DNA of 34,066 bases from a virus (IMGVR_UViG_3300050821_009355:1-34066); one strand, 5' to 3'; shown: positions 217-28,602, counted from the first letter of the stretch. Notes: generated by a model from the letters alone, not told the origin. Numbers and translations are program-made.

Positions 217-702
217 ATGTCCACGCAGGCAGCGGCGCTCAGCGCCGAGCAGCTTCAGGCGCTACAGCAAGACCCGCAAATTCAGGAGCTCGGCGGGCAG
301 CTTTATATTGCCAAGTTGTTTCACTACATCGTGAACAACACGCATGCGGGCAACGACACGGTCACGAACTCATTTCAAATCGATTCCGACGCCGATTTCC
401 AGCTTTTGTTTTTGATCGGCAGCCGCACCAGCGCAAGCGCCACGATCGAGGTGACCGAAGGCAGCGCCGGCGGACTCGCCTGGCAGAGCAATCCCGTGAA
501 TATCGACAACTTTCTCGGGACAGCGCAGAACCCGTTCCCGGCCGGGCTCATTCCGCAACTGATGCCCAAGAAACGGTCCTACAAAGTGAAGACCGTGGAC
601 ACGAGCGGCGCGGCGAATTCGATCCAAGTGGATTTCTGGGGCTACAAACTGTACCCGGCCGCGATGGCCGCGCAGTTGGGCGCTCTGCCTTCGGGTAACT
701 AG
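217..702 (+). CDS. Jelly-roll-like capsid or minor capsid protein (putative)
   Basis: A 161-residue protein with no signal peptide or membrane segment. After a helical Gln/Ala-rich start of about 30 residues it is beta-rich, with the pattern FQIDSDADF, then WQSNPVNIDNFLG, then IQVDFWGYKLYP. This is the hydrophobic-strand layout of small single-jelly-roll or spike-base proteins of viruses. The ATG at 217 has AGGAAG seven bases upstream. It overlaps the next gene by one base (TAGTG). Together with the genes at 860 and 1447 it forms a trio of mid-size beta proteins directly after the leader, and the capsid candidate at the right end of the window would precede it in a circular genome. Capsid role is inferred from composition and context. 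Confidence 0.55.
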   Translation: MSTQAAALSAEQLQALQQDPQIQELGGQLYIAKLFHYIVNNTHAGNDTVTNSFQIDSDADFQLLFLIGSRTSASATIEVTEGSAGGLAWQSNPVNIDNFLGTAQNPFPAGLIPQLMPKKRSYKVKTVDTSGAANSIQVDFWGYKLYPAAMAAQLGALPSGN

Positions 703-863
703 TGGATCGTGGTGACAAAATCGTCGCTTGGATATTGACGATTATCTCGGTCGCCATGTATGCCGCGTTAGTCGTTCGATTCCGAGGCCACTGGGGCGCG
801 CTGATTGGCGGAGGGGCTTTTATTTATGTCTTTCTTCGCATTGAAGTCTGGAAGAAACGATGA
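702..863 (+). CDS. Small two-helix membrane protein
   Basis: A 53-residue ORF starts at GTG 702, overlapping the previous stop, and ends with TGA at 861-863, overlapping the next ATG at 860. This tight coupling on both sides is the main support. Two hydrophobic stretches are clear: residues about 6-25 (KIVAWILTIISVAMYAALVV) and about 31-47, separated by RFRGH and followed by EVWKKR. Both ends would lie on the cytoplasmic side by the positive-inside rule. It could be a small virion membrane protein or a holin-like lysis protein. Confidence 0.6.
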   Translation: MDRGDKIVAWILTIISVAMYAALVVRFRGHWGALIGGGAFIYVFLRIEVWKKR

Positions 864-1360
864 TTAATCCTTGGACACAAGGTCGCGTGCCGGGTGTCGC
901 GCCAAATCCGCCACTCGGCGGATGGCTCGTCAAGCGCAAGATGGCTTCGCCCGCCTGGACGCTTCCTCAATGGGTGCGCGAATCGCTCAAGGGCGCGCAT
1001 CTCTACTGGTACCAGTTCCCGGAGCTCGTGCTGGCCGCCGGGGAAACGCAACTCACGCGCGTGACCGTGGGCGAGGATTTCTGGCTGGTAACCATCATGA
1101 GCCACGAATCCGTGGACATCGCCAACACCGGCTCGATCCGCGCGCAGATTTACGAAGACCAGCAAACCTACAAATATTCGAAGTACGGCTCGAACAAAAT
1201 CAATTTTGCGGGTAATGCGCGGGAGCCTGGCCTGAATTGCATCCCGCACTTTATCGCCGCAGGATCCCCGGTCAACTGCCGCGTGCAGAATCTCAGCGGC
1301 ACGCTTTCCAATACGGTGGACATCTGCATGTTCGGCTATTCCGGCTGGTGGAGGGAGTAA
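860..1360 (+). CDS. Capsid- or spike-like beta protein
   Basis: A 166-residue protein with no membrane segment. Residues 1-45 are basic and Trp/Pro-rich; from about 50 to the end alternating strands predominate (LTRVTVGEDFWLVTIMSH, then NTGSIRAQIYED, ending DICMFGYSGWWRE). Size, strand pattern and position match the proteins at 217 and 1447, so a paralogous or co-assembling capsid component is likely. The ATG overlaps the upstream stop (ATGA). I cannot name a family. Confidence 0.5.
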   Translation: MINPWTQGRVPGVAPNPPLGGWLVKRKMASPAWTLPQWVRESLKGAHLYWYQFPELVLAAGETQLTRVTVGEDFWLVTIMSHESVDIANTGSIRAQIYEDQQTYKYSKYGSNKINFAGNAREPGLNCIPHFIAAGSPVNCRVQNLSGTLSNTVDICMFGYSGWWRE

Positions 1361-1446: not shown

Positions 1447-2163
1447 ATGGCCTACGACAAACTTTTTGCCGATCCTTCGGACGCCGCGGGCGAGCCGAAC
1501 ATCACGAATGCCGCCGCGTCCTCGATTCGCGCCTCCACGTGGCCCTACGCCGCGCGCGCGGACCGCTCGCTCGCACCGCCGATCGTGCTGCGTCCGCCGG
1601 CCGCGCCGTCGCAGACCGACGACCCGCTGATTTCCTCGATCTACGATCTTTCCGGGGTGATGCAGCAGGTGCAGCGCTCGGCGCGCCTGATTTCCGCGCC
1701 CTGGCTGATCGAGCCTCCCGACTCCGAATCGTTCCACAACGCGGCCGGTATTCTCCTGCCGGCCATTTCCGCCACGAACTTCACCACGGTCTTGAGCATC
1801 ACCTGCCCCACGGGTCGCAACGGCGTGATCAAGGAAATCGCCAACGTAATCGTGGGCGGCGCCTGGGCGGACTTTTCCGGGGCCGCTATCTGGCAAATCG
1901 TGCGCAACCCCGGAGCGGGCACGAATACCGGCGGCTTTGCCGAGCGCAACTACGAGAACATTCAGGCGTCGCTCGGCCTCGTGAACGCGCCAGTAAAAAT
2001 TTCCGGCATCCGCATTTTTGAAAACGATGTGATCCGTTGGGTCGTGCGCAACGTTTCGTTGCCCACGTCGGGAGTCGGAGCGGGCGCGCTCCTGGGCGGC
2101 TATTTCTATCCCAAGACGTGGGACGACCAGTTCGACGCCAGCGACAAGCCCAACGCCTGGTAA
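1447..2163 (+). CDS. Capsid- or spike-like beta protein, larger paralogue type
   Basis: A 238-residue protein, soluble by sequence. The first 75 residues are Ala/Pro-rich and probably extended; from about 95 on it is beta-rich (FTTVLSITCPTGRNGVIKEI, then GAAIWQIVRNPG, VKISGIRIFENDVIRWVVRN). The strand order with a C-terminal GGYFYPKTW block resembles the ends of the proteins at 217 and 860. Start ATG at 1447 is preceded by a weak GGGG element because the heptamer array occupies the upstream gap. Probably a virion surface or vertex component; no family recognised. Confidence 0.5.
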   Translation: MAYDKLFADPSDAAGEPNITNAAASSIRASTWPYAARADRSLAPPIVLRPPAAPSQTDDPLISSIYDLSGVMQQVQRSARLISAPWLIEPPDSESFHNAAGILLPAISATNFTTVLSITCPTGRNGVIKEIANVIVGGAWADFSGAAIWQIVRNPGAGTNTGGFAERNYENIQASLGLVNAPVKISGIRIFENDVIRWVVRNVSLPTSGVGAGALLGGYFYPKTWDDQFDASDKPNAW

Positions 2164-2204: not shown

Positions 2205-2360
2205 ATGAAGTTGCGAGCGGTGAATGCCGCCGATCTTCGCAAGCGCGCGGAAATGGTGAAGATCAGCGAAGGCGATGAAGACCTGGCCGTTTTAATTCCG
2301 TGGCCGCTGTACGTGGAAATGGCCAAATTGATCGAAGCGATGAAGCGGACGGTGCTGTGA
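2205..2360 (+). CDS. Small hypothetical protein
   Basis: A 51-residue, mostly helical charged protein (MKLRAVNAADLRKRAEMVKI, then LAVLIPWPLYVEMAKLIEAM). I chose ATG 2205; a TTG at 2169 in the same frame would add 12 residues. Neither has a strong ribosome binding site. Its stop overlaps the next ATG (TGATG), indicating translational coupling to the secreted protein downstream. No family recognised. Confidence 0.45.
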   Translation: MKLRAVNAADLRKRAEMVKISEGDEDLAVLIPWPLYVEMAKLIEAMKRTVL

Positions 2361-3532
2361 TGGCTCGACGTAAACTGAACATCCCGAAAGCGGCGCAGAT
2401 TCGCGGCATACGCAAGGCTCTGGCGAATCGCAAAACGCCGCGGCAATTCATTCCCGGCCTGAAAAAGCGACTGGCAAAACTGACAGCCTGCATCCTCTTC
2501 GCCTTCGCGGCGGCGTCCGTGGCGCGCGCGCAGGCTCCAGTCTCGATCGTACCGATCCAGCAAACCTTGGCCGCAGCTGGGACCGCCTGCATGGGAAGCG
2601 CTCAATCCTTTACCGCAAATAATCGAAACCAGAATCAGCACACGGCAACGCTCGTTCTTTCCGGGTCCACTGCCGTCGTTTCGCTGCAAATTCAAGGTGT
2701 CGATTCGGCGGGAAATACGTTCATCATTTCGCCTACGGCTCAAGGCGGCGCGCTTTTCAATGGCGTCAGCGCGATCGTGAGCGCATCGGGCTACTATCCG
2801 ACAATCAACGTGCTGGTCACTTGCACGGTCGGAAGCACCTTTACGCTGAGCTATGTGGGAACGCAGGCCAGTCCCGTAATTTTGGCAGGTACGCAATTGC
2901 TCAGCCTGATCGATCAGCAAATTTTCACGGGATTGAGTGGCAATCAGAATAGTATTGTTTTCAATACTCCATTTGGGAATTCATCCGGCATCGTTCGATT
3001 TAATTACGTCACCACACCGGGCGCGGGCGGATCGATTCAGGTACTTTGTTTTACCGCCATCGGCGGCGTTAGCTCTCAATCCTTGCAGTTTATCTTCCCG
3101 CTGGCCAATTCCACGGCCACGCAGGTTTTCAAGGTGCCGCAATCTACCTGCACGCAGGCCCAGCTTATCTACACTGCTGGCGCGGCCAGCGGGAATGCCA
3201 ATGAGGAATACGTTTTCGATTTGCCCGGAGATGCCGTCAATACCACGCTGGGCAGCTACACCCATATCGTGGGAACGACGGCTACGGCAGTCAAGGCCAC
3301 GGCCGGCACGCTTCTAAATATCGTGATCAACACCCCTGCGGCCGGCACGATCAGCGTCTTTGACCTGGCGACGGCGGCCTGCACGGGCACGCCATCGACG
3401 AACACGGTCGCAGTGATTACGGTTGCGTCGGCGACGGATGCGCACGCCACGTTCAGCTATAACGATGCACTTTTGAACGGGATCTGCGTCAAGGCCAGCG
3501 CCGCGATGGACATTACCGTCTCAAGTCAATAG
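2360..3532 (+). CDS. Secreted beta-sandwich protein with N-terminally extended signal peptide
   Basis: A 390-residue protein. Residues 1-40 are unusually long and basic, followed by a hydrophobic core at about 41-55 and a cleavage-like ARA|QAP site, so it looks like a Sec signal peptide with a long n-region. The rest is Thr/Ser/Ala/Gly-rich with beta strands and scattered cysteines (pairs around CMGSAQ, TCTVGS, CFTAIG, CTQAQ, ACTGT, GICVK), compatible with tandem immunoglobulin-like or beta-sandwich domains stabilised by disulfides. Start ATG 2360 overlaps the upstream stop. It is the first of three consecutive exported proteins, so a surface fibre, spike or host-exposed adhesin is likely. 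Confidence 0.6.
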   Translation: MARRKLNIPKAAQIRGIRKALANRKTPRQFIPGLKKRLAKLTACILFAFAAASVARAQAPVSIVPIQQTLAAAGTACMGSAQSFTANNRNQNQHTATLVLSGSTAVVSLQIQGVDSAGNTFIISPTAQGGALFNGVSAIVSASGYYPTINVLVTCTVGSTFTLSYVGTQASPVILAGTQLLSLIDQQIFTGLSGNQNSIVFNTPFGNSSGIVRFNYVTTPGAGGSIQVLCFTAIGGVSSQSLQFIFPLANSTATQVFKVPQSTCTQAQLIYTAGAASGNANEEYVFDLPGDAVNTTLGSYTHIVGTTATAVKATAGTLLNIVINTPAAGTISVFDLATAACTGTPSTNTVAVITVASATDAHATFSYNDALLNGICVKASAAMDITVSSQ

Positions 3533-3545
3533 AGGAAAATTCCCC

Positions 3546-5639
3546 ATGAAAAAACTTCTCGCAGCGGGCTTTTTTCTTGCTTCCTGCCTCCTGCTTCCGG
3601 CCTCCAGTTACGCCCAGTTCACCACGGTGACGGCCACGGTGCAGGACCCGAACGGCATCCCCTACTCCGGCGCGATCATGAACGCCATCCTCGTGCCCGG
3701 CGCATCAGGTGGATACCGGCTTGGCGGGCAACCCTATTCCGGGCGCGTGGGACCCGTGACGCTAGACATCAATGGCAGTTTTACGGCGCAATTCGGCGAC
3801 GTCACCCTGATCACTCCCGGCAGCCCGCAATGGCAAATCACCATCGATTCCGCCGCCGCCACGATCCTGCCATCGCTGGGCACCGGCCCGCAGAGCTTCA
3901 CCTATACGAGCAGCGGCACCACGATCAGCGGCAGTTCGCCCGTGAGTCTCACGACCGCGTTGAACGCTCTCGCGCCCAAGCTCACGAATTTCGCAAGCGG
4001 CGGATCTGGGACAATCAGTTGTGCGATTTCAGCAGCAGTACTTTTTGAAACTGCTGCAAACACGGCTGGCTGCGCGACTGGATTTACGTTTTCGACACCA
4101 AATCTCACGATCCCGCTGAATGGTGCGTACGAAATCAATGGCGTTCCGATGCTTTTTTCTCCTGGACAGGGCAGCTCGCTCAACAATCTCGGCGTCGGCG
4201 GTCCCTCTACACTCTCGGCCATCACCACGGGAGTCAACAATGTGGCGGTAGGGCCATCTACAATGAATTTGACTACGTCCGGTTCTGGAAATACCGCCGT
4301 TGGTACTGGCGCCTTAGGTAGCGAAGCGGCAGGAGCGAGTAACAACACTGCGGTCGGATGGGATGCCTTACCATCCGTCACATCCAGTGCAAATACGGCC
4401 ATCGGCGAGGGTTCACTAGCGTCATTGATTTCCGGCAATAAAGATACCGCCGTAGGAACGGGAAGTGGCGGAATCACCACGGGTAGCTCGAATACCTTCG
4501 TCGGATTCGTTGCCGGAGGAAACACCACAACGGGAGGATCGAATATTATCCTCGGCGCAGATGATAATAATACGGTAACGACGGGAAGCGGTAACCTCGT
4601 TATTGGAAATGCTTTAAGCGGAATCACAAACACCTCGAGCAATCAGCTTGATGTGATGGATGCGATCATCGGTACGGGAATGAATGTACCGGCGACATCG
4701 ACCGTCGAATACAAAGGCAATCTAAAAATCGATGGAACCTGCACGGGATGTTCGAGTGGCGTGACTTCATTTTCCGGTGATGGCACGATCATCACGAACA
4801 GCGCTTCGACGGGCGCGGTGACGGCCACTATCGCGGGTACGAGCGGTGGTCAACCGTATTTCAATTCCGCATCATCTTGGGCATCTACAGGCGTTCTGGC
4901 GAATCACGCGATCCAAACTGGTGGTGGAGCGGGCGGTGCACCTACCACGGGCAATGGCGACTTCACAATCGATTCGACGGCGCATACGCTCCTAGCAGGT
5001 GCTGCCGGGCTTGTTGATTTACACGCCGAAGCAACGAGCGGGTTCAAACCGCCAGCAAGCGCTTCGACGTCGGTAACTGCGGCAGGCGCGTTAATGTATA
5101 GTTCTCAATTTGGTTCTGCCTTGCAATTAGGAACAGGGGCTTCTCAGGCGTGGATGGCTTGGGCTGGGGCCGTAGGATCGGGCAGTACCACATGCTCTTC
5201 AGCTTTTCAATACGTGACAGGAATCTCCGCGATCGCTGCGCCGACCTGTTCTTCTTTGGCCGTAGCCGGGGCGTTTACATCACAAAGAAACGAAACCGCT
5301 ACCGATAACAATGTATTGACGGTAACTCCAAATGCAGCGCCGGAAAGTTTTCGGGTCCGATTTGTACTTTCGGTCTCCGCAGCGACTGCAGCCGTGCTTG
5401 GCTGGACGATAACGTGGAAAGATTCCAACGGAAATGCGCAATCTCCAACGAATCTGACTCTCACTCAATCTGGTAGTGCTCTTCCCGCGCTTACTTTTAC
5501 CACCAGCGCAGCTGGGGATTATTACGGTCAAGCCGACATCGACGTCGATAATTCAGCGACGAACATCGTCGTCAAGTTCTTGTTGACCGGTGGCACGATC
5601 ACCGCGAAAGCTACAGCCACGATCGAAAGAATTATCTAA
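3546..5639 (+). CDS. Secreted receptor-binding fibre with YadA-head-type repeats
   Basis: A 697-residue protein. Residues 1-24 are a signal peptide (KK, hydrophobic core, SYA|QF); a LASC sequence at 11-14 also resembles a lipobox, but cleavage there would leave a hydrophobic N-terminus. Residues about 25-160 form a domain almost identical to that of the next gene. Residues about 225-360 carry repeated N-T-A-V-G units (GNTAVGTGAL, NNTAVGWDAL, ANTAIGEGSL, SNTFVGFVAG), the beta-roll repeats of YadA-type adhesin heads and phage tail fibres. The last 120 residues look like a compact beta-sandwich, perhaps the receptor-binding tip. Likely trimeric. The predicted export signal is odd for a phage fibre. 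ATG 3546 is preceded by GAGGAAAA. Confidence 0.75.
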   Translation: MKKLLAAGFFLASCLLLPASSYAQFTTVTATVQDPNGIPYSGAIMNAILVPGASGGYRLGGQPYSGRVGPVTLDINGSFTAQFGDVTLITPGSPQWQITIDSAAATILPSLGTGPQSFTYTSSGTTISGSSPVSLTTALNALAPKLTNFASGGSGTISCAISAAVLFETAANTAGCATGFTFSTPNLTIPLNGAYEINGVPMLFSPGQGSSLNNLGVGGPSTLSAITTGVNNVAVGPSTMNLTTSGSGNTAVGTGALGSEAAGASNNTAVGWDALPSVTSSANTAIGEGSLASLISGNKDTAVGTGSGGITTGSSNTFVGFVAGGNTTTGGSNIILGADDNNTVTTGSGNLVIGNALSGITNTSSNQLDVMDAIIGTGMNVPATSTVEYKGNLKIDGTCTGCSSGVTSFSGDGTIITNSASTGAVTATIAGTSGGQPYFNSASSWASTGVLANHAIQTGGGAGGAPTTGNGDFTIDSTAHTLLAGAAGLVDLHAEATSGFKPPASASTSVTAAGALMYSSQFGSALQLGTGASQAWMAWAGAVGSGSTTCSSAFQYVTGISAIAAPTCSSLAVAGAFTSQRNETATDNNVLTVTPNAAPESFRVRFVLSVSAATAAVLGWTITWKDSNGNAQSPTNLTLTQSGSALPALTFTTSAAGDYYGQADIDVDNSATNIVVKFLLTGGTITAKATATIERII

Positions 5640-5646
5640 GGGCCTA

Positions 5647-7782
5647 ATGGGAAAACGATTTTTGATTCTAATCTGCTTTCTCCTTGGGTTGGCCAGCCCT
5701 TCGTTTGCGCAGTTCACCACGGTGACGGCCACGGTCCAGGACCCGAACGGCATCCCTTATTCCGGCGCGGTGATGAACGCGATCCTGGTACCCAGCACGG
5801 GCGGCGGATATACGCTAGGCGGGCAACCCTATTCCGGGCGCGTGGGACCCGTGACGCTCGATTCCACTGGCAAATTCACCGCGCAATTTGGCGACGTAAC
5901 GCTGATTACCCCCGGCAGTCCTCAATGGCAAATCACGATCGATTCGGCGGCAGCTACGATTCAACCGCCGCTCGGAACCGGCCCGCAGAGTTTCACCTAC
6001 ACGAGCAGCGGCACCACGATCAGCGGCAGTTCCCCAGTGAGCCTTACCACGGCATTGAACGCTCTCGCGCCGAAGCTGACAAATTTCGCGACTTCTGGGA
6101 CGGTAACGAATGTCTCTGGGACATCTCCAATCGTTTCCTCTGGTGGCACGACGCCCGCCATCTCCTGCCCGACGTGTAATACCACGGTACCGCTCGCTCC
6201 GAACGGGCCGGGAATTCCGCAGCCGAATGGAACAACTTACGATCCCACGAATTTCGGCGCCAAATGGGACGCCCTAAGCGTAGTCGGCTGTTCCGGCACT
6301 GGCGGGCTGTTTGTCGTTACGTGCTCCAACGCGAATTTCAATATCCTAACGGATGTAGGTAAGGTGTTTTGGGGTTCGGGAACGCCGAATGCGACGCCGG
6401 ATGTTCCCGCTACCACGATCAGTACCGTCAACAGTTCCACGCAGGTCACTCTTACGGGCGCCCTTGCGCGTACAATGGTCGCAGGACAGATCGTCTATGG
6501 TCATGATGACACTACGCAAATCAATAACATGTGGGCAGCGCTTCTCACAAATGTGAATTGCGGCCATGCTCACTTCCCGTCTGGTGGAACAATTTTTTCC
6601 TCACAAATCATGACCACGGTTTCCCCGACCTGCACGTTCAATCAAAACAATCTCGGCTATACCCTGGCGGGCGAAGGCCAAATGAGTACGCAGTTTTTCG
6701 TGCCGCCGAACTTTACCTATTTCAGTCCCAGTAAGTGCAGCAATACGAGCATCGGCGCGTGTTTCGGTCCGGGTGCTGCCATTTACAAGGATTTTCAAAT
6801 CAGCGCCGGATTCGATCCCAACGGGGAAATTTACGCGAATACTTATAATGGGTGCTGGTTCCCTCTCGGTTCAACCGGGGCCATGCAGAACATCAACATC
6901 GCTGGTTTCATCGTCCCTGGAACGATGCGTACGGTGTGCGTCAGCACCGGCATTGCCACCATCTCGAATACTTTTATTCAAGCAAGTGGGAATGGAGGAA
7001 GTCCGTGCTCGGCACTGGGGATCGCAGGCGGCGACATCACCGTAGACGTGCTGTACGTGAATTCCGTCTGCACCAATGACGGTGGGGCCATCACGGCAAG
7101 CGGGCCAGACAACAATTTTTACAACGTATTCGACAGCGAAGCCGTGCAGAACCCGATTTTGATTACCGGGGGATCGTCTGATTTTTTTTCTCTCGCCCTG
7201 GGTGACGGCATCAAAGCGACGGGAGCCGGGACACAGGTCCACATTTCCAACAGCGACGTGGTCGAAAACGTTGCCAGCCTTACGAATATGATCACGGCTG
7301 CCGCCGGTGCAACCGTTACCCTCAGCGGATCGCGTTTTTCCAACGTCGCTGCGGGAACCAATTACGTCGTAGGCGTGGATGCGACTTCTACATTCATCGA
7401 TGGCTGCGGAAATACGTTTTCGTCGAATACGGCGACCGCGAATGTTAGCGCTGGCGGAATATTCGTCCCCTGTCCAGGCACGATTTACAAGGGAAGCCCA
7501 TCCACCCCGACCCTGACAGGTACCGGAGCATGCGCCACATTCAGCACGCAAAATGGCACATTGTACTACGGCTCGTTCGCATGCTCGGGAACGACGGGTG
7601 CGGCAACGATCACTATTACGCCGGGCACAACGGCATCTCACGGGTTTCGATGCGCGGCCTCGGATACGACGACTCCGGCGAACACAATTCCCACGGGACC
7701 ATTGGCTACGGGCGGCTGCGCCTTCAGTGCGGCAAACATCGCAAACGGAGACATAATCAGTTTTGAAATGATACCTTTTTGA
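5647..7782 (+). CDS. Secreted tailspike-like protein, pectate-lyase-type beta-helix
   Basis: A 711-residue protein from ATG 5647. Residues 1-21 are a signal peptide ending SFA|QF. Residues about 22-158 repeat, nearly residue for residue, the N-terminal domain of the preceding gene (QFTTVTATVQDPNGIPYSGA, then GSPQWQITIDSAAATI). After about residue 190 the sequence switches to the NFGAKWDA ... DDTTQINNMWAAL pattern that opens right-handed beta-helix tailspikes, with long beta-helical repeats after it. This is the plan of enzymes that bind or cut host polysaccharide; I cannot identify catalytic residues. The two genes form a modular pair with one attachment domain and two receptor modules. Confidence 0.75.
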   Translation: MGKRFLILICFLLGLASPSFAQFTTVTATVQDPNGIPYSGAVMNAILVPSTGGGYTLGGQPYSGRVGPVTLDSTGKFTAQFGDVTLITPGSPQWQITIDSAAATIQPPLGTGPQSFTYTSSGTTISGSSPVSLTTALNALAPKLTNFATSGTVTNVSGTSPIVSSGGTTPAISCPTCNTTVPLAPNGPGIPQPNGTTYDPTNFGAKWDALSVVGCSGTGGLFVVTCSNANFNILTDVGKVFWGSGTPNATPDVPATTISTVNSSTQVTLTGALARTMVAGQIVYGHDDTTQINNMWAALLTNVNCGHAHFPSGGTIFSSQIMTTVSPTCTFNQNNLGYTLAGEGQMSTQFFVPPNFTYFSPSKCSNTSIGACFGPGAAIYKDFQISAGFDPNGEIYANTYNGCWFPLGSTGAMQNINIAGFIVPGTMRTVCVSTGIATISNTFIQASGNGGSPCSALGIAGGDITVDVLYVNSVCTNDGGAITASGPDNNFYNVFDSEAVQNPILITGGSSDFFSLALGDGIKATGAGTQVHISNSDVVENVASLTNMITAAAGATVTLSGSRFSNVAAGTNYVVGVDATSTFIDGCGNTFSSNTATANVSAGGIFVPCPGTIYKGSPSTPTLTGTGACATFSTQNGTLYYGSFACSGTTGAATITITPGTTASHGFRCAASDTTTPANTIPTGPLATGGCAFSAANIANGDIISFEMIPF

Positions 7783-7810: not shown

Positions 7811-8101
7811 GTGGGTGGGTTGGAGTATCCGCCAAAATGCGATTTTAAGATGGAAGATGGCACGGATTGCCCTATCCCTGCGTCGCATTTCTGGGGTTCG
7901 CTCGGCGAGGGCGGCAAAGCGGTGAAAATGTGCTGCACGCACTTCGATCTCTTCGCGCCCACGCTGTTCAAAAAGCCGCTGGAGCCGGGCTACTTTCTTC
8001 CATCGTTTCACGCGCGGCATATTGAAATCGTGGAGGAATACAATCGCCAGTGCGGGCGCACGTCGCTGATTCCGGGAGCGAAATGCAGATCGAACGATTG
8101 A
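7811..8101 (+). CDS. Small cysteine/histidine-rich protein
   Basis: A 96-residue protein read from GTG 7811. Cysteines and histidines occur as C-x10-C, SHFWG and MCCTHFDLF, which could bind zinc, and a further pair lies near the C-terminus. An overlapping ATG at 7809 is in another, shorter frame. No family recognised. It lies between the spike genes and a cluster of small membrane proteins. Confidence 0.55.
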   Translation: MGGLEYPPKCDFKMEDGTDCPIPASHFWGSLGEGGKAVKMCCTHFDLFAPTLFKKPLEPGYFLPSFHARHIEIVEEYNRQCGRTSLIPGAKCRSND

Positions 8102-8105
8102 GTGA

Positions 8106-8140
8106 GCGAAAGGCCCCGGCGAGGAGCGCTTTCGCGGTAA
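8106..8140 (+). repeat. Bulged GNRA-loop hairpin with GGTAA tail
   Basis: GCGAAAG pairs with CTTTCGC, one unpaired G follows, then GCCCC pairs with GGAGC (one mismatch) around the loop GGCGA, and GGTAA follows at 8136. Here the loop is GGCGA instead of GGTAA, so the G+GNRA pattern is kept. It lies directly upstream of the gene at 8150. Confidence 0.8.
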
Positions 8141-8148
8141 GACTGTCC

Positions 8149-8169
8149 AGTGGCTAGTGGCGAGTGGTT
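8149..8169 (+). repeat. Short AGTGGCT heptamer array
   Basis: Three tandem units AGTGGCT, AGTGGCG and AGTGGTT. The first supplies the GTG start codon of the next gene and the array encodes its first residues. The same unit type recurs at 19707. Confidence 0.7.
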
Positions 8170-8383
8170 AGCGCTTTTGCCCGCGGCTGTGGGCGGGCTG
8201 CTCGGTGCTGGGGCAGCCTGGGCCACGATGCGGTTTCGGATCAGCAAGACAGCGGGCGATGTGAACGGCCTTGGGCGCAAGTTCGGGCGATTGACCGCGT
8301 TTCAGTTGCGCGCGCTGGCCGAAGAGGAACCGATTAGCAAGGCCAAACTCCTGCACCTGGCAGACCTGATCGATCCGAAGTGA
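8150..8383 (+). CDS. Small single-helix membrane protein
   Basis: A 77-residue protein starting at GTG 8150 inside the heptamer array. Residues about 6-26 form one membrane segment (WLALLPAAVGGLLGAGAAWA), followed by a basic, helical soluble tail (RFRISK ... KLLHLADLIDPK). An N-terminal anchor followed by a charged domain suits a virion membrane protein or a spanin- or holin-like protein. No ribosome binding site is evident, since the hairpin tail and array occupy the leader. Confidence 0.5.
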   Translation: MASGEWLALLPAAVGGLLGAGAAWATMRFRISKTAGDVNGLGRKFGRLTAFQLRALAEEEPISKAKLLHLADLIDPK

Positions 8384-8397
8384 AAGGAGACATCAGT

Positions 8398-8709
8398 ATG
8401 AATGGCATCGATCCAACGGTTTTGATTGCGATGATCAAAGCGCATCCGTACATGACCCTGGCGGCCGCTCTCTACTGGCTGTTCAGCAATCAGGTCCTCA
8501 AGATGAACCCAGTCACTCCCCAATCCTCGAAGCTTTACAAGACCGAATTCGCGGTGCTGCATTTCATCGCCGGTGCGCTCCCGCGAATCGCGAGCAACGG
8601 GCTGCTGCCTCCCTGGCTTGCGAAATTCATCGCCGGCGGAAATGGTGCGTCCACGGAAAATCCACAGGGCACGCCCGCGAAGGTTGACTCCGCGCCGCCG
8701 AAGGGATAG
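8398..8709 (+). CDS. Small membrane-associated hypothetical protein
   Basis: A 103-residue protein from ATG 8398, preceded by AAAGGAGA, which decides this start over an upstream in-frame GTG. A hydrophobic stretch (YMTLAAALYWLFSN) at about residues 18-31 and a second around VLHFIAGAL suggest membrane association. The C-terminus is Pro/Gly/Ser-rich and disordered. No family recognised. Confidence 0.55.
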   Translation: MNGIDPTVLIAMIKAHPYMTLAAALYWLFSNQVLKMNPVTPQSSKLYKTEFAVLHFIAGALPRIASNGLLPPWLAKFIAGGNGASTENPQGTPAKVDSAPPKG

Positions 8710-8721
8710 AAAAGGTTCGCC

Positions 8722-8949
8722 ATGCCCGAACAGGTCCAGAAGGCGGAACAGTATTTTCAGGACGCGATGCGCGACATTGGGGCGATCCTGCGCTCGACGC
8801 ATGCGACCGCCACGGCGGGCGAAAAGATCGTGCGCATCGCCTGGGTCATCGGCAACCTGCCCGAAGGACTGCGCGAAACGGTGATCGCCGAAGCGCAGAA
8901 CCGCGTGACGATCGGCTGGGCTTCTGGCATGAAACCGACCGACTGGTAA
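8722..8949 (+). CDS. Small helical hypothetical protein
   Basis: A 75-residue, probably all-helical soluble protein (MPEQVQKAEQYFQDAMRDIG, then EKIVRIAWVIGNLPEGLRE). It has AAAAGG before the ATG and follows the 8398 gene by 12 bases, so it is in the same operon. No family recognised. Confidence 0.5.
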   Translation: MPEQVQKAEQYFQDAMRDIGAILRSTHATATAGEKIVRIAWVIGNLPEGLRETVIAEAQNRVTIGWASGMKPTDW

Positions 8950-8955
8950 AAAGGA

Positions 8956-8990
8956 GCGAAAGGCCCCGGTAAGGGGCGCTTTCGCGGTAA
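8956..8990 (+). repeat. Bulged GNRA-loop hairpin with GGTAA tail
   Basis: The canonical form: GCGAAAG/CTTTCGC outer stem, single G bulge on the 3' side, GCCCC/GGGGC inner stem, GGTAA loop, and GGTAA again right after the stem. The tail GGTAAG lies seven bases before the ATG at 8998, where a ribosome binding site would be expected, and no other such site is present. Confidence 0.85.
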
Positions 8991-8997
8991 GACTTTC

Positions 8998-9840
8998 ATG
9001 AGGAAAACCCTCTGGACGCTGAACGTTGGGAACTACGCGCCGGAACTGTGCGAATTGACCTATCCGCTGCTCCTGGCCTACGCCAACAAGATGGGCGCCG
9101 ATTTCCAGATCATCAACGAGCGGCGCTTCCCTGAAATGCCGGTCACCTACGAAAAGCTGCAGATTTTCTACCTAGGGCGCGGGAACGACTGGAACATCTA
9201 CATCGATTCCGATGCGCTGATTTTCCCGGACATGTTCGACCTGACCGAGCGCATTCCCAAAGATACCGTGGCGCACTACCATCGCGACCACTCGATCAAC
9301 CGCTTCAAGTCGAACAACTATTTTCGGCGCGATGGGCGGGACATCGGCTCGGCGAATTGGTTCACCGTGGCGAGCGATTGGTGTATGGATTTGTGGCACC
9401 CGCTGTCAAGCGTCGCTAGTGAAAATATTTTGGCAAATCATCCTGAAACGCTTCAGGAAATCCGTCCGATTGTGGCCGAGCGGCAGGCGGGCATCACGCC
9501 AGAGCACTTGATCGACGATTACACGCTTTCGCTGAATATCGCGCGCTACGGGCTGAAATTCACCACCGTGGCGGAAATCATGCAGCGCACGAACGACCGC
9601 GGCGTCTACGCCTGGCACACGCATCGCATGCCGCTGGCGAAAAAACTGGAAGAGATTCGCGTGGGGATCGGCCCGCGCGGCGCGAACCTGATGGGACTCG
9701 AGGAATTCCTTGCCTGTAGAAAAGGCTCAGGACGTTTCGCTTTGGCCGATTGGCTCGCCGAATACGGCACGAGCCGCGCGAAGCCCCAGGTCGAAGAGAT
9801 GCGTACCACGAACGACAAGTACGGCCAGGCGGCACGGTGA
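8998..9840 (+). CDS. Glycosyltransferase, GT-A fold (putative)
   Basis: A 280-residue protein. The N-terminal part follows the nucleotide-sugar transferase plan: a first strand (TLWTLNVGNY), the segment ADFQIINERRFPE, a helix YEKLQIFYLGRGNDW, then the metal-binding D70-x-D72 in IYIDSDALIF. This layout matches GT-A families acting on cell-surface or protein glycans (galactosyltransferase GMA12/MNN10 or GT8-like). The C-terminal 60 residues are charged and may be flexible. Lying after the spike genes, it could modify host surface glycans to block superinfection, or decorate virion proteins. Substrate unknown. Confidence 0.7.
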   Translation: MRKTLWTLNVGNYAPELCELTYPLLLAYANKMGADFQIINERRFPEMPVTYEKLQIFYLGRGNDWNIYIDSDALIFPDMFDLTERIPKDTVAHYHRDHSINRFKSNNYFRRDGRDIGSANWFTVASDWCMDLWHPLSSVASENILANHPETLQEIRPIVAERQAGITPEHLIDDYTLSLNIARYGLKFTTVAEIMQRTNDRGVYAWHTHRMPLAKKLEEIRVGIGPRGANLMGLEEFLACRKGSGRFALADWLAEYGTSRAKPQVEEMRTTNDKYGQAAR

Positions 9841-9983
9841 TAAAACTTTGGCGGAAGAGGTGGTGGCATGTGGCAAGTGCCGCGATGTGGGGATGGAAGT
9901 CATTACAACGATTCGAAGTTTGGGCCATGAATCGACATCTTTTAATGAATCAGGTTCACCGCTCACGAATCGCTAGTCATTAG
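9837..9983 (+). CDS. Tryptophan-rich basic micropeptide
   Basis: A 48-residue ORF from GTG 9837 that overlaps the stop of the glycosyltransferase gene (GTGA) and ends at TAG 9981-9983, four bases before the next ATG. It has five tryptophans in the first 28 residues (LWRKRWWHVASAAMWGW), many Arg/Lys/His, and an amphipathic helix-like pattern. It could be membrane-active. Support is the coupling and tight fit between genes. Confidence 0.45.
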   Translation: MIKLWRKRWWHVASAAMWGWKSLQRFEVWAMNRHLLMNQVHRSRIASH

Positions 9984-9986
9984 CAC

Positions 9987-10214
9987 ATGGCCATTCAACT
10001 CACTGTTGACAAGCTGGAAGCGGATGGCACGATTCGCGTGCGGCACGTTTTCTTTGGCGAGACACTGGAAGAGTGCGAAACGGCGCGCGACCAGCACGGC
10101 GCGGGCTGTCAGGCGTTCGGCCCGGCCCTGAAGCGCGGCAACAAGGGCGTGATCGAACTGGTCGAGGAAATCGACGAAATCCCGGAATGGGAAGAGGATG
10201 AAGAAACCAGTTGA
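9987..10214 (+). CDS. Small acidic hypothetical protein
   Basis: A 75-residue protein with a beta-rich core (MAIQLTVDKLEADGTIRVRH) and a strongly acidic C-terminus (EEIDEIPEWEEDEETS). No family recognised. Its last codons overlap the first unit of the heptamer array at 10210, which supplies part of the stop region. Confidence 0.55.
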   Translation: MAIQLTVDKLEADGTIRVRHVFFGETLEECETARDQHGAGCQAFGPALKRGNKGVIELVEEIDEIPEWEEDEETS

Positions 10215-10281
10215 TAGTTCACAGTTGAAAGTTCAAAGGAAAGACTTTCGACTCTCAACTTTCAACTTTTAACTTTGCACT
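10210..10281. repeat. Inverted heptamer array abutting a start codon
   Basis: The left half has AGTTGAT, AGTTCAC, AGTTGAA and AGTTCAA; the right half has AAAGACT, TTCGACT, CTCAACT, a six-base TCAACT, TTTAACT and TTGCACT. AGTTGAAAGTT pairs perfectly with AACTTTCAACT across the centre. The last unit ends one base before the ATG at 10282, so there is no room for an ordinary ribosome binding site, and translation of the next gene must depend on something else. Confidence 0.8.
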
Positions 10282-10782
10282 ATGCCCTCCGTACCCAACG
10301 CCGTGCTTTTGACTCCTGCGCAGATCGCCTACTACGCGCAGAATGCGGGATTCTCTGGAAACGATCTCAACATCGCCGTGGCCATCGCCCTTGCCGAGAG
10401 TTTTCCATCCGGAAACCCCAATTCGTACAATCCCGAAACTGCGGCAGGCACGCCCGCGGGAGAAGGCTCCTACGGGCTGTGGCAAATCTACCTGCACGCG
10501 CATCCCGAATACGCCGGCGCGAACCTGTACGACCCGCAAACGAACGCCAACGCCGCTTACGCCATCTATTCCGCGACCGGCGGATTCTCTCCCTGGGCGA
10601 CCTACAATTCGGGAGCGTACCAGGCGCACCTTGCAAATTTCGGCCCGGAGATGGTCTCGATTCCAGGATTGACCACGGCGACGAGCGAGACGCCCGCGCC
10701 GGAAAGCTTTTCCATGACGGAAGTGCTGTGGATCGGCGCGGCCGTCCTGACCGGATGGTTTCTCTTCAGCCTCTGGGAGTGA
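10282..10782 (+). CDS. Membrane-anchored lytic transglycosylase (SLT/GH23-like)
   Basis: A 166-residue protein. The transglycosylase fold is shown by IAVAIALAES with catalytic Glu39, then GSYGLWQIY at 62-70, and NLYDPQTNANAAYAIYSATG with GFSPWATY, the conserved blocks of SLT domains. Residues about 145-163 form a C-terminal membrane helix (VLWIGAAVLTGWFLFSLW). It would cleave peptidoglycan glycan strands. A small transglycosylase with its own anchor recalls PRD1 P7, a membrane-bound virion enzyme used for genome entry, and fits a membrane-containing virion better than an endolysin. No signal peptide is seen. Confidence 0.8.
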   Translation: MPSVPNAVLLTPAQIAYYAQNAGFSGNDLNIAVAIALAESFPSGNPNSYNPETAAGTPAGEGSYGLWQIYLHAHPEYAGANLYDPQTNANAAYAIYSATGGFSPWATYNSGAYQAHLANFGPEMVSIPGLTTATSETPAPESFSMTEVLWIGAAVLTGWFLFSLWE

Positions 10783-10789
10783 TTTTTTC

Positions 10790-11011
10790 ATGGATACCGC
10801 CGAAATGCCGATCATGCACGGTGCTTCTATCATTTTCATGACCGGGAATCCGCCTGCGAATCCGGGCGACGTGGGGGTTATCGACATCTGCGTTTTGAAA
10901 TGCGCGTGCGGATTCGAAGCCAGAAGCAAATGCTGGCGCGACGCGGGCAGCATTCTCGACAATCACTTGTGGCAAAAGCTTCGTTCCAATGATACTGTCC
11001 CGCCGAAATGA
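10790..11011 (+). CDS. Small hypothetical protein with CxC and C pair
   Basis: A 73-residue protein from ATG 10790. It has LKCACGFEARSKCWRDAG near residues 36-53, a possible metal-binding cysteine cluster, after an Ile/Met/Gly-rich N-terminus. No family recognised. It follows the transglycosylase by seven bases with a weak leader (T-rich), so expression is likely coupled. Confidence 0.5.
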   Translation: MDTAEMPIMHGASIIFMTGNPPANPGDVGVIDICVLKCACGFEARSKCWRDAGSILDNHLWQKLRSNDTVPPK

Positions 11012-11030
11012 CAACCGCTTGGGAGTGAAC

Positions 11031-11546
11031 ATGGAAACTCAAACCAGCAATTTCGAAGGATGGGCCGTCGTGGAACTCTTCGGCCATCAGCGCGAAGTGG
11101 GATTCGTCACCACGCAGGTATTCGGCGCGGCGGTGCTCTTTCGAATCGACACGCCGGAGATACCTGAACGGGAATACACGCTCGAGCGACCGGAGCAGGT
11201 GAAGCAAGGAAACACGTATCTATGGGGCTCCATCGGCAGCAAGGTGAAGCGCGAAGGTATTCCCGCGAAAACGAAACTCGTGGGACCGTCCGCAATCTAC
11301 GCCATGACGCCGTGCACGGAACAGACCGCCCGCATGGCCATCGAGCGCATGATTCAACCGCCACTGATCCTTTTGGAATTGGCCACGACACCGATGCTGC
11401 CGGGAACCTTGCCCGGCGAATCTGCGAAGCGCGACGAAGGCGAGCGGTACTGTTCGGAGTGTGGCGCGACTCCCGAGGAAGATCACGAAATCGGTTGCAG
11501 CTTCAATTCGGGTTTGGACGACGATGAAAGCGACGATCCACTTTGA
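11031..11546 (+). CDS. Hypothetical protein with N-terminal beta domain and C-terminal zinc-ribbon-like motif
   Basis: A 171-residue protein from ATG 11031, preceded by GGGAG nine bases upstream; this is preferred to an in-frame start at 10989 that overlaps the previous gene. Residues 1-70 (FEGWAVVELFGHQREVGFVT ... VLFRIDTPEIP) look like a small beta-barrel domain that I have seen in phage proteins of unknown function. The C-terminus has YCSECGATPEEDHEIGC, a probable zinc-binding cluster, and an acidic tail (DDDESDDPL). Role unknown. Confidence 0.6.
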   Translation: METQTSNFEGWAVVELFGHQREVGFVTTQVFGAAVLFRIDTPEIPEREYTLERPEQVKQGNTYLWGSIGSKVKREGIPAKTKLVGPSAIYAMTPCTEQTARMAIERMIQPPLILLELATTPMLPGTLPGESAKRDEGERYCSECGATPEEDHEIGCSFNSGLDDDESDDPL

Positions 11547-11577
11547 GATTCGCTTCTTTTAATTGACGAGAGCGAAA

Positions 11578-11617
11578 CGGGGAACGGGCGTTCGGCTCCT
11601 AGGGCCGCCGTTCCCCG
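11578..11617 (+). promoter_or_regulatory. Strong hairpin before the lysozyme gene
   Basis: CGGGGAACGG (11578-11587) pairs perfectly with CCGTTCCCCG (11608-11617), and the intervening bases can pair further (CGG with CCG around CTCCTAGGG). No T run follows, so it is not a classic terminator. It lies 13 bases before the ATG at 11631, with GGAG overlapping the stem end, and could control access to that ribosome binding site. It is unrelated in sequence to the GGTAA hairpins, although preceded by GCGAAAC. Confidence 0.6.
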
Positions 11618-11630
11618 GAGTAGCAGCAAA

Positions 11631-12062
11631 ATGCCAGTGACCGAATGGATTACGAACATCTACAGCCAACTGCGACGCGATGAAGGGATTCGCTCGCATC
11701 CTTACACGGACACCGAAGGAAAACTCACCATCGGCGTGGGGCGCAACCTGACGGACAAAGGACTTTCCCAAAGAGAAATTGATTTTCTTTTGGGCAACGA
11801 CGTGAACGAAATGCTGGAAGGATTGCAGTCGCGGCTGCCATGGTTCGCGGCGCTCGATCCGGCGCGCCAGGGTGTGATCCTGAACATGGCATTCAACATG
11901 GGCATTGCCGGGCTCGACGGTTTTCCGCGTTTCTTACAGGCTGTGGCGCAGGGTAACTGGGAAACGGCGGCGGATGAGATGCGGGATTCGCTATGGGCGA
12001 AGGAAGTGGGCGAGCGCGCCGTGCGGCTCGAGCAGCAGATGCGTACCGGCGTCTGGGTCTAA
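11631..12062 (+). CDS. T4-type lysozyme, endolysin (GH24)
   Basis: A 143-residue muramidase. The catalytic triad has T4 lysozyme spacing exactly: Glu18 in RRDEGIR, Asp27 in YTDTEGK and Thr33 in LTIGVG. The C-terminal part (GVILNMAFNMGIAGLDGFPR) matches the family's helix with the N-M-x-F-N-x-G motif. It would cut the peptidoglycan backbone for host lysis. No signal peptide or membrane helix, so release would need a holin or membrane damage. Start ATG 11631 sits after GGAGTAGCAGCAAA and the hairpin at 11578. The genome therefore carries two peptidoglycan hydrolases, one anchored (10282) and one soluble. Confidence 0.9.
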   Translation: MPVTEWITNIYSQLRRDEGIRSHPYTDTEGKLTIGVGRNLTDKGLSQREIDFLLGNDVNEMLEGLQSRLPWFAALDPARQGVILNMAFNMGIAGLDGFPRFLQAVAQGNWETAADEMRDSLWAKEVGERAVRLEQQMRTGVWV

Positions 12063-12085: not shown

Positions 12086-12403
12086 ATGGCGCATTACCAA
12101 GTGAAGATTCAGATTTCATCGGTGCGCGTGCCCGATCCGCCCGCGCCGCCTCCGCAGGAGCCTTACGATCCGGGAAAGGACCCGGTCCATGAAGTCGCGC
12201 AGGTGATGCGCGAATCGATGGCCGCTCTTCGCGCGCCCGCAATTCCGATGCACGGATACGGATTTTTCCTCGAGAACGGCCTGACGCTCACAAAAGAAAT
12301 CGAGATTCACGCCGAATCGTTCGAAGAATTGGCCAAGGCTCTTGGGCAGTTCGATACACTCGCCGAACAAATCGAGTGCGCCAACCCCACGAAAAAGTGG
12401 TGA
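12086..12403 (+). CDS. Hypothetical protein with central Pro-rich stretch
   Basis: A 105-residue protein from ATG 12086, with GGGAGA upstream. It starts with a strand (HYQVKIQISSVRV), a Pro-rich linker (PDPPAPPPQEP), then helical and beta parts ending with an amphipathic helix (EELAKALGQFDTLAEQIE). No family recognised; operon partner of the lysozyme, 23 bases downstream. Confidence 0.55.
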   Translation: MAHYQVKIQISSVRVPDPPAPPPQEPYDPGKDPVHEVAQVMRESMAALRAPAIPMHGYGFFLENGLTLTKEIEIHAESFEELAKALGQFDTLAEQIECANPTKKW

Positions 12404-12439
12404 GCGAAAGGCTCCCGGTAAGGGGCGCTTTCGCGGTAA
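12404..12439 (+). repeat. Bulged GNRA-loop hairpin with GGTAA tail, GCTCC variant
   Basis: Outer stem GCGAAAG/CTTTCGC with the conserved G bulge. The inner stem reads GCTCC against GGGGC, so one C-G pair becomes a T-G wobble, still pairable. GGTAA forms the loop and the tail. The tail continues AATCTGTGG, like the copy at 26552. Confidence 0.8.
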
Positions 12440-12481
12440 ATCTGTGGTAGGATGCGCGGCAGAAGCGGAAGGGCTGGGACT

Positions 12482-13446: not shown

Positions 13447-13561
13447 TCATCCCCACATCATTAAGCGTTACCTGTTCCTTCTCTCGGAGGACCAAAAAGG
13501 GCATGATCGTGCCGAGCAAGAGCCACATTCCAATCGCGATTTTAGCTGCTAGGGGCATCAT
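13391..13561 (-). CDS. Small membrane protein coupled to the SNF2-methyltransferase gene
   Basis: A 56-residue ORF starting ATGATG at 13561, overlapping the TGA of the upstream gene at 13558 and preceded by GGAGGA. One membrane helix is clear at about residues 6-26 (KIAIGMWLLLGTIMPFLVL), followed by REKEQVTLNDVGM. The strong ribosome binding site and overlap make it a confident gene despite its size. The frame ends at TGA 13391, but see the overlapping ORF at 13446. Confidence 0.65.
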   Translation of the reverse strand: MMPLAAKIAIGMWLLLGTIMPFLVLREKEQVTLNDVGMIDPVPYNWTCTVFGLSLR

Positions 13562-19748: not shown

Positions 19749-20224
19749 GGATTCACCTCCGCGCGGGGCGCGGCTTTCCAGCCGTCGTTGCGGCCGTCGG
19801 GCCAGATGTGGGTGTAGGCCGCGCCCAGGACGCCGTCGATCACGTGCGGCGTGATGGCCCGGGGAAGCACCCAGATCGGCCCGGTGGCGATGCGCGACGG
19901 GGTCCCGTTCGATGGGGTAAAAGGCATAGTGAGAGATGCGCCGTAGATTCTCTGAAACGCTTCCCCGTAGGGATGATTCAGATCGACGAGAACGGTGCGC
20001 ACGTCTCCATCGTTGCGAATGACGGTGCGGCAGTCATTGTATTTTTCCGTGGTATCCGCAAGCTGTTTGCGCAGCGCGTCGTTCAGTTGCGCGGTCTCCG
20101 CGCGATCGGCTTCCACTTGCCAGCGGAGTTGGTCGGTGCGAATCGCCGAAGGAATCCCGCCCAGCGCCAGTCCAAAGAGCACCAGCATCACCGAGCGCCA
20201 GATTTGTTTGTTGGGATTTTCCAT
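19745..20224 (-). CDS. N-terminally anchored coiled-coil protein
   Basis: A 159-residue protein. Residues about 10-28 form one membrane helix (WRSVMLVLFGLALGGIPSA), then about 30-60 a coiled coil (QVEADRAETAQLNDALRKQL), then a soluble C-terminal domain with conserved-looking YGEAFQRIYG. This topology resembles Rz/i-spanin-like lysis proteins or periplasm-facing proteins, but the C-terminal domain is longer than in spanins and the position in the early block argues against lysis. GGAG lies 11 bases before the ATG. Confidence 0.5.
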   Translation of the reverse strand: MENPNKQIWRSVMLVLFGLALGGIPSAIRTDQLRWQVEADRAETAQLNDALRKQLADTTEKYNDCRTVIRNDGDVRTVLVDLNHPYGEAFQRIYGASLTMPFTPSNGTPSRIATGPIWVLPRAITPHVIDGVLGAAYTHIWPDGRNDGWKAAPRAEVNP

Positions 20225-20235
20225 CGTAATTCTCC

Positions 20236-20285
20236 AGTTGAAAGTTGACAGTTAAGAGTTGAAAGCCTTTCGACTTTCAACTCTT
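20236..20285. repeat. Inverted heptamer array with 12-bp perfect hairpin
   Basis: Units AGTTGAA, AGTTGAC, AGTTAAG, AGTTGAA on the left; TTCGACT, TTCAACT on the right. AAGAGTTGAAAG (20254-20265) pairs perfectly with CTTTCAACTCTT (20274-20285) across an eight-base loop. The array supplies the TGA stop of the gene ending at 20277. Confidence 0.8.
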
Positions 20286-21320: not shown

Positions 21321-21820
21321 TCCACACCGTGATTCAAAATCATCCCAGCGAACGCGCTGCGTTTCGCCGTTATGCGGCGGTCGAAGTCGGCGGAGGTGTG
21401 GGAGGCACGACGCCGAGGCGCTCGAGCGCGGACTGCGTCGTCGGCGCCGGGTCCTTCTGCGCCGTCATGAGTTCCTGCACGAAGGCGGGCTGTACTCCAG
21501 AATCGGCCGCTTCGAGCCGGTTCACCAGCGCCACGAAGGGTATCCCTTTCGCCGTCATCCCTTCCCAAACGCGAAAATTCATCCCGTTCAGAATGACGGT
21601 CTTGCTGGTGCTCTCCATCTGTGCTTTCATGCGGAAAACTCCTTAGTTGAGAGTTGACAGTTGAGAGTTGAAAGGTTTCGACTTTCGACTCTCGACTTTT
21701 GACTAACGCTATTTCTTGAGTCTGGAACCAGTCCTCGGCCTTAATCGCCAGATCGTGCCCGATCGCCAGAAACTTCCGCCACGCCCACCGTTTCAGGCTT
21801 TTTAGGATTCGAGTTTTCAT
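21317..21820 (-). CDS. Small basic protein whose C-terminus runs into a heptamer array
   Basis: The ATG at 21820 has GAGGTG five bases upstream, so a gene starts here. Residues 1-39 (MKTRILKSLKRWAWRKFLAI ... EDWFQTQEIAL) are a basic amphipathic, natural-looking segment. From residue 40 the codons are those of the array at 21645 (SRESKVETFQLS), and then the frame stays open out of phase across the 21370-21630 gene to TGA 21317. The original end was probably lost when the array was inserted. The functional part is likely the first 40 residues. Confidence 0.4.
   Translation of the reverse strand: MKTRILKSLKRWAWRKFLAIGHDLAIKAEDWFQTQEIALVKSRESKVETFQLSTVNSQLRSFPHESTDGEHQQDRHSERDEFSRLGRDDGERDTLRGAGEPARSGRFWSTARLRAGTHDGAEGPGADDAVRARAPRRRASHTSADFDRRITAKRSAFAGMILNHGVE
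21370..21630 (-). CDS. Small hypothetical protein
   Basis: An 86-residue protein (MESTSKTVILNGMNFRVWEG, then MTAKGIPFVALVNRLEAADS) with a Pro/Thr-rich C-terminus. ATG 21630 has AGGAG 11 bases upstream. No family recognised. Confidence 0.6.
   Translation of the reverse strand: MKAQMESTSKTVILNGMNFRVWEGMTAKGIPFVALVNRLEAADSGVQPAFVQELMTAQKDPAPTTQSALERLGVVPPTPPPTSTAA
21645..21704. repeat. Inverted heptamer array
   Basis: Left: AGTTGAG, AGTTGAC, AGTTGAG, AGTTGAA. Right: TTCGACT, TTCGACT, CTCGACT, TTTGACT. All eight units keep exact 7-base phase. It separates the starts of two - strand genes. Confidence 0.8.
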
Positions 21821-24786: not shown

Positions 24787-24899
24787 GACTATCTGCGGCG
24801 ACGAAGCTATGGTATTCCCAGTACGGAGGTCAAGAGGAAATCGCGGTGCTGTGCCTAAATCGCATGTGGAAAAGCTGTGAAAACGTTGAAACCGTTGAA
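24787..24899. other. Intergenic stretch without a convincing gene
   Basis: Together with the neighbouring hairpins and the array this forms a 400-base gap (24665-25070) between two - strand genes. It contains a TGTGGAAAA sequence at 24864 like those in the iteron region. No open frame with a start signal stands out. A + strand transcript starting after the hairpin at 24733 is conceivable but unsupported. Confidence 0.4.
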
Positions 24900-27416: not shown

Positions 27417-27431
27417 AGGGAGGAAGCGTGC

Positions 27432-27587: not shown

Positions 27588-27594
27588 GAAAAAA

Positions 27595-28601: not shown

Positions 28602-28602
28602 A

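Follow-up and report, generated by a model that had tools for sequence, protein, structure and literature searches.

Predicted Sec-dependent export of spike-like, cysteine-paired proteins encoded by an uncultivated virus and by tailed phages

Phage fibres are generally regarded as cytoplasmic, which raises the question of why a virus would encode spike-like proteins with signal peptides and where such proteins would go. The case considered here is the 34,066-base virus record IMGVR_UViG_3300050821_009355 (the whole stretch of DNA analysed, referred to below as the window), in which three consecutive plus-strand genes starting at 2360, 3546 and 5647 encode protein 2360 and two paralogous spike-like proteins, spike 1 and spike 2. 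An initial annotation of this sequence had proposed that all three carry convincing signal peptides and that two of them bind receptors, leaving three options: that spikes are added from the periplasm, that virions mature at or outside the membrane, or that the proteins act on the host surface. Judged from the sequences of the window and its relatives, export of the three proteins via Sec is very probable.

Results

Signal peptides on three consecutive genes

Open reading frames (ORFs) with ATG starts were confirmed at all three positions. The predicted signal peptide of protein 2360 (2360-2530, plus strand; MARRKLNIPKAAQIRGIRKALANRKTPRQFIPGLKKRLAKLTACILFAFAAASVARA↓QAPVS) is 57 residues long, its n-region being a conserved, basic and unusually long 40-residue N-extension, followed by a hydrophobic core and the site ARA↓Q. 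The mature part (2531-3532) is a single-copy, beta-rich, predicted exported protein with six conserved cysteines and represents a possible partner or base for the spikes. Spike 1 starts with a signal peptide at 3546-3614 (MKKLLAAGFFLASCLLLPASSYA↓QFTTV, site SYA↓QFTTV), preceded by a good ribosome-binding site (GAGG), and continues into a conserved Ig-like N-terminal domain common to both spikes and weakly similar to CarboxypepD_reg/Big_1 (3615-4000) and a variable C-terminal part (4001-5639) with YadA-head-like repeats and matches to phage virion structural and tail spike families. Spike 2 follows the same plan, with a signal peptide at 5647-5709 (MGKRFLILICFLLGLASPSFA↓QFTTV, site SFA↓QFTTV), a conserved N-terminal domain paralogous to that of spike 1 (5710-6105), and a variable C-terminal part (6106-7782).

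In each protein a positively charged n-region leads into a hydrophobic core, an A-X-A-type site and then Gln, and no second hydrophobic span (KD19 of at least 1.6) was found in any of the three products, as is expected of substrates of Sec and signal peptidase I (SPI). Among the 43 window genes examined, these three are the only ones in which a hydrophobic segment at the N-terminus is followed by an A-X-A site; the minus-strand genes 19745 and 20871 have N-terminal transmembrane (TM) segments. The signal peptides anticipated from the sequence are therefore borne out by classical Sec/SPI features and by conservation, and the predicted cleavage sites would leave both spikes starting at QFTTVTATV, as had also been proposed.

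Conservation of the signals in related viruses

Signal peptides were called with a hand-written rule, positive for all three proteins, together with conservation across homologues. The rule is lenient and passes 88 of 832 unrelated ORFs (10.6%), so the case for signal peptides rests on conservation. Shuffled N-termini still fire it in 730 of 3200 instances and make a poor control, because composition itself is the signal.

Relatives were collected by IMG/VR scans using the spike N-domain, the candidate capsid protein and the ATPase of the window (both described below) as queries. About 25 related contigs, mostly of 33-39 kb, fall into two groups, one of about ten contigs whose capsid protein is 84-96% identical to that of the window and one of about fifteen whose capsid protein is 37-42% identical to that of contig L012. 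Wherever mapped, the gene order is kept: capsid candidate, 217, 860, 1447, 2360 and then one to three spikes. In the 2360 family the rule was positive for 25 of 27 sequences, effectively 26 of 26, because one negative came from reading the window copy from a start too far upstream and the other was an ORF in the wrong frame. It was positive for 36 of 37 spike homologues. Control families from the same genomes scored 1/32 (capsid), 0/27 (217), 0/26 (1447) and 1/15 (ATPase).

Spike signal peptides are 28% identical in pairwise comparison, versus 48% for the N-domain, and keep their hydrophobicity, basic start and A-X-A↓Q; such divergence in letters with retained character is the pattern seen in real signal peptides and suggests that these are of that kind. 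Gln occupies position +1 in 60 of 63 sequences, 59 of them recognised by the pattern A/G/S↓Q and one (L003, 4394, IHA↓Q) read by eye. The N-extension of protein 2360 (window 2360-2482) is 80% identical in close relatives versus 52% for the mature part, is absent in distant relatives, and may have its own role in the cytoplasm or membrane.

An even number of cysteines after cleavage

Cysteines were counted after the predicted cleavage site in complete homologues. Every one of these 56 proteins has an even number: the 25 of the 2360 family (mostly 6, with six cysteines conserved) and the 31 spikes (range 0-22). Within the window, proteins 2360, 3546 and 5647 each have a single cysteine in the signal peptide, and beyond the cleavage site they have 6, 6 and 18, respectively; the count is thus even only without the signal peptide, which disfavours uncleaved anchors. 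Non-exported proteins from the same set of genomes gave even/odd counts of 10/14 (capsid), 10/24 (860 family), 0/19 (1447 family) and 7/7 (ATPase); a few of the sequences in these control families are stray ORFs or overlap one another.

When pooled with ten from the tailed-type contigs described below, the C-terminal parts of the spikes form about 24 clusters without detectable similarity to one another, so even parity would have arisen many times rather than as a single inherited accident. As a rough inference, the chance of the observed parity is in the region of 1e-5 to 1e-6. The even counts are best read as a disulphide signature, a line of evidence independent of the signal-peptide rule; if the mature proteins are disulphide-bonded, they must leave the reducing cytoplasm.

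The same trait in tailed phages

A wider search with the N-domain reached contigs of 48-55 kb, three of which (L106, L107 and L111) derive from tailed phages. L106 and L107 contain a terminase large subunit (PHROG 2, E 4e-21 and 5e-19, respectively) and a portal (PHROG 156), with a head protein of PHROG 9953 in L107, and L111 contains a terminase (PHROG 38, E 4e-51), a portal (PHROG 1216/SU10_portal) and a head protein (PHROG 371/Mu-like gpT). Downstream of the structural genes, all three carry a run of two to four fibre-sized genes whose products have signal peptides, and several of these products share the Ig-like N-domain of the spikes. Across L106-L109 and L111, 13 of 14 signal-peptide-bearing fibre-like proteins have an even number of cysteines. 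No other fibre-like gene was seen by eye among ORFs of at least 180 aa in the fetched parts of L106 and L107, so the proteins with signal peptides are plausibly the virion receptor-binding proteins (RBPs) of these phages. Since unrelated tailed phages, which have a terminase, a portal and an HK97-type head protein, encode the same kind of fibre, the trait does not depend on a virion that matures at a membrane. To judge from these genomes, export of fibre-like proteins is a habit of several unrelated phages and not a consequence of one virion type.

Modular architecture of the spikes

The two window spikes share a 300-nt direct repeat, 83% identical, that includes the N-domain. Across the relatives the spikes are modular, with a conserved N-domain, an exchangeable C-terminal part and one to three tandem copies downstream of the capsid genes. 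This combination is the usual pattern of RBPs, and the fibre-like proteins probably recognise the host. The YadA-head-like C-terminal part of spike 1 matched PHROG 6002 (E 1.4e-11) and the 'tail spike' family PHROG 4636 (E 2e-6). The proposal that two of the three proteins bind receptors thus draws on the conserved N-domain and the swapped C-terminal parts of both spikes, and the family match to tail spikes extends to 3546 only.

Database searches were otherwise largely negative. The capsid candidate, 217, 860, 1447, 2360 and the spikes gave no useful match among isolate phages, Pfam, PHROG or PDB, the YadA-head-like part of spike 1 excepted; for the 2360 family this holds for Pfam and PHROG and for convincing matches in PDB, and profile searches of PDB returned nothing meaningful for the ATPase, the capsid protein or the 2360 family. 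The spike N-domain had no match among isolate phages or plasmids, and no provirus carrying it turned up among 84,980 genomes of bacteria and archaea, only chance matches (Streptomyces, an Acetobacteraceae bacterium).

Virion type and other genes of the window

The candidate major capsid protein (33421-34066, plus strand) is cut by the window end; it has no signal peptide, is 254 aa long in relatives and is up to 96% identical to them. At the other end of the window lie two small virion-type paralogues, 217 (217-702, plus strand; no signal peptide, no cysteine) and 860 (860-1360, plus strand; hhalign probability 100, with family overlap), and the conserved virion-type protein 1447 (1447-2163, plus strand; no signal peptide), which is located just upstream of the exported trio. 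A P-loop ATPase on the minus strand (16910-18682) with an invariant Walker A motif (GQTQLSGKTT) is the candidate packaging ATPase, possibly of the FtsK/HerA type; its family matches are marginal (AAA_10 0.09, FtsK 0.3), and the single marginal terminase match of the window (E 0.045) falls on it. No convincing terminase, portal, HK97 head or tail gene was found with PHROG or Pfam among the window proteins scanned, and the virus record itself may be incomplete; the proteins scanned also include a DnaB-like helicase. A lytic transglycosylase (10282-10782, plus strand; SLT_3, E 2e-21) and a lysozyme-type endolysin (11631-12062, plus strand; PHROG 7, E 3e-18) are present, the latter indicating release by lysis.

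An AlphaFold model of the capsid candidate built with 24 homologues is a moderate beta-sandwich (pLDDT 61, pTM 0.59); the model from a shallow alignment was poor (pLDDT 27). In VIA comparisons the best neighbour was satellite panicum mosaic virus (Z 6.8), followed by P23-77 VP16 (5.8), HCIV-1 (5.3), HHIV-2 (5.2) and SH1 (5.0), and most of the neighbours are viral jelly-rolls, the rest being unrelated beta-sandwich proteins. As the model is moderate and Foldseek gave no significant match in PDB or BFVD (E above 0.1), no capsid family is claimed. Our best guess is that the window virus is a tailless single-jelly-roll virus, which would place it with the dsDNA viruses of the Varidnaviria. The Sphaerolipoviridae and other viruses of this type (P23-77, SH1, HHIV-2, HCIV-1) have small capsid proteins that the model weakly resembles and, like the window with its candidate packaging ATPase, a P-loop ATPase instead of a terminase; no sequence match links them to the window, and the fold match (VIA Z 5.0-5.8) falls short of significance, with Foldseek E above 0.1.

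Several further features of the window were noted. Positions 26592-33334 hold a run of genes with hydrophobic spans, several of them C-terminal and some with basic tails (RRRR, KKRR, GGKRR), including one for a transglutaminase-like protein (Pfam E 5e-8) that has a TM segment at its C-terminus; the products are candidate virion membrane proteins. An 865-aa fusion of helicase and DNA methyltransferase (13558-16155, minus strand; PHROG 16, E 1e-115) has relatives of about 52% identity on Azospirillum and Mesorhizobium replicons. A conserved 280-aa protein (8998-9840), present in most relatives, was judged by eye to resemble a GT-A glycosyltransferase on account of a DSDALI motif and had no PHROG match. 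Self-complementary intergenic repeats (GCGAAAGGCCCCGGTAAGGGGCGCTTTCGCGGTAA, plus strand) occur at 8104-8147, 8954-8997, 12403-12446, 26550-26593, 31083-31146, 32002-32045 and in the first bases of the window and may be terminators or mobile repeats. A second intergenic family, (A)GTTGAAAGTTGACAGTTGAAAGTT with CTTTCGACTCTCAACTTT, is found in both orientations at 1364-1437, 10208-10288, 20221-20270, 21644-21719 and 24892-24975. In a 34.5-kb relative (L019/L021, IMGVR_UViG_3300027297_000001) the capsid gene is split across both record ends with an overlap, which suggests a circular or terminally redundant genome.

Discussion

We propose that protein 2360 and the two spikes are Sec/SPI substrates exported during infection, the spikes being built from a signal peptide, a conserved Ig-like N-domain and an exchangeable, receptor-binding C-terminal part. 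Removal of the signal peptide would expose an N-terminal Gln (QFTTV in the spikes), probably converted to pyroglutamate. In the periplasm several disulphides would form, and the proteins would fold and probably trimerise. When the endolysin and transglycosylase open the cell, the spikes would join virions assembled in the cytoplasm through the conserved N-domain, possibly by way of protein 2360, and bind receptors from there. Such joining in a lysate is chemically reasonable: in vitro, particles take up P22 tailspikes and T4 fibres. We give the whole chain, from export up to virion attachment, an even chance, more than any of the other explanations considered. That the tailless-type virus and at least two tailed lineages share this order of events, with RBPs passing through Sec, oxidised in the periplasm and loaded as the cell opens, is put forward more tentatively.

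Several points weigh against this proposal. We know of no phage that loads exported spikes at lysis, and the presence of the 2360 product and the spikes in virions is putative. The similarity of the spike N-domain to CarboxypepD_reg/Big_1 is weak (best E 0.0015). One relative, L049, encodes fibre candidates without signal peptides at 7989-9164 and 9175-11685 (0 and 8 cysteines, respectively), so spike export is not indispensable; it is the only genome of the group in which such candidates were seen, and its 2360 homologue retains the signal peptide.

Several known systems resemble parts of what is proposed. The classical phage RBP with a signal peptide is pIII of the filamentous phages (Inoviridae), which resembles the window proteins in having a cleaved signal peptide, disulphides and a periplasmic phase; pIII differs in being membrane-anchored and added during extrusion, whereas the window proteins have no second span and are encoded with a lysis cassette on a 34-37 kb element of another kind. 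Known tailed-phage spikes and fibres (PHROG 4636 and 6002; fibres of Achromobacter, Pelagibacter and Prochlorococcus phages) share the YadA-head-like repeats of spike 1 and the plan of conserved N-domain and variable C-terminus, but are made and attached in the cytoplasm and have no signal peptides. Trimeric autotransporter adhesins of the YadA type combine a signal peptide with YadA-head-like repeats; the C-terminal membrane anchor barrel that they carry was not found in protein 3546, which had no Pfam match at E up to 1. In the open-access literature we came across neither exported fibres in lytic phages, tailed or tailless, nor signal sequences on the spikes of membrane phages. A host whose exported proteins obey a similar rule is suggested by the Gln at +1; the virus is putatively from soil, and its host may, as a guess, belong to the Acidobacteriota. 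Signal peptides that obey a Q-rule have been described as Bacteroidetes-specific (Bochtler 2018, PMC5837995), and secreted proteins under this rule, with unknown function, have been described from phages of Porphyromonas gingivalis (Matrishin 2023, PMC10367356; noted also in PMC10653852). Membership in this class would further call for a Bacteroidetes host with glutaminyl cyclase; the genome, plasmid and phage collections searched contained no relative. The P. gingivalis phage proteins are likewise phage-encoded, with SPI signal peptides exposing an N-terminal Gln, but come from Bacteroidetes prophages, whereas the proteins considered here are fibre- or spike-like, lie beside capsid genes, and occur in tailless-type and tailed phages.

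Among other explanations, the most serious is that the exported proteins never enter virions but remain periplasmic or reach the cell surface and the medium, and act on host or neighbour surfaces, as an adhesin, a glycan-degrading enzyme, or in receptor masking or superinfection exclusion, with attachment left to other proteins such as 217, 860 or 1447. Signal peptides and disulphides are directly suited to work outside the cell, so that no novel step in assembly is called for, and the secreted proteins of the P. gingivalis phages offer a parallel; the RBP-like modularity and tandem duplication beside capsid genes, the lack of other fibre-type genes seen in L106 and L107, and the lack by Pfam of a beta-barrel or other surface anchor, which leaves arrival at the surface before lysis unexplained, make this reading somewhat unlikely. 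Two of the options first raised, addition from the periplasm and action on the host surface, both survive, and maturation at or outside the membrane loses ground, as tailed phages have fibres with the same signal peptides and N-domain. Budding at or across the membrane in the manner of filamentous phages, with virions collecting membrane-exported adsorption proteins as they do pIII, would also suit a candidate capsid protein of no known family; given an endolysin and a transglycosylase, which suggest lysis, and tailed phages that assemble in the cytoplasm, we consider it improbable.

A comparably small likelihood attaches to the view that the hydrophobic N-termini are uncleaved signal anchors that hold the spikes in a virion membrane or the inner membrane, although the window virus may contain membrane proteins (26592-33334) and the basic extension of protein 2360 is of a conserved cytoplasmic type. 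Nearly all homologues have A-X-A↓Q, with Gln at +1 in the proportion given above, the spike n- and h-regions are short, membrane-less tailed phages bear the same signals, and cysteine parity appears only once the signal peptide is removed; moreover, if a virion membrane came from the inner membrane, the translocated part would end up inside the particle. Uncleaved anchors, which would have spoken against the initial annotation, are therefore disfavoured. That the N-termini are chance hydrophobic stretches or products of wrong start codons is barely credible: the leniency of the rule speaks for it, and against it stand the retention of the signals in about 25 genomes and in tailed phages unrelated to them, the cysteine parity and the ribosome-binding site before the 3546 start.

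If the proposed chain is true, exporting spikes before attaching them would equip phage spikes with disulphides that cannot form in the cytoplasm. If several unrelated, putatively soil phages do share a conserved class of Sec-exported, disulphide-rich fibre-like proteins, then either virions are completed by a new route or many secreted, surface-acting phage proteins are now annotated as tail fibres, and both readings matter for finding receptor-binding proteins in uncultivated viruses.

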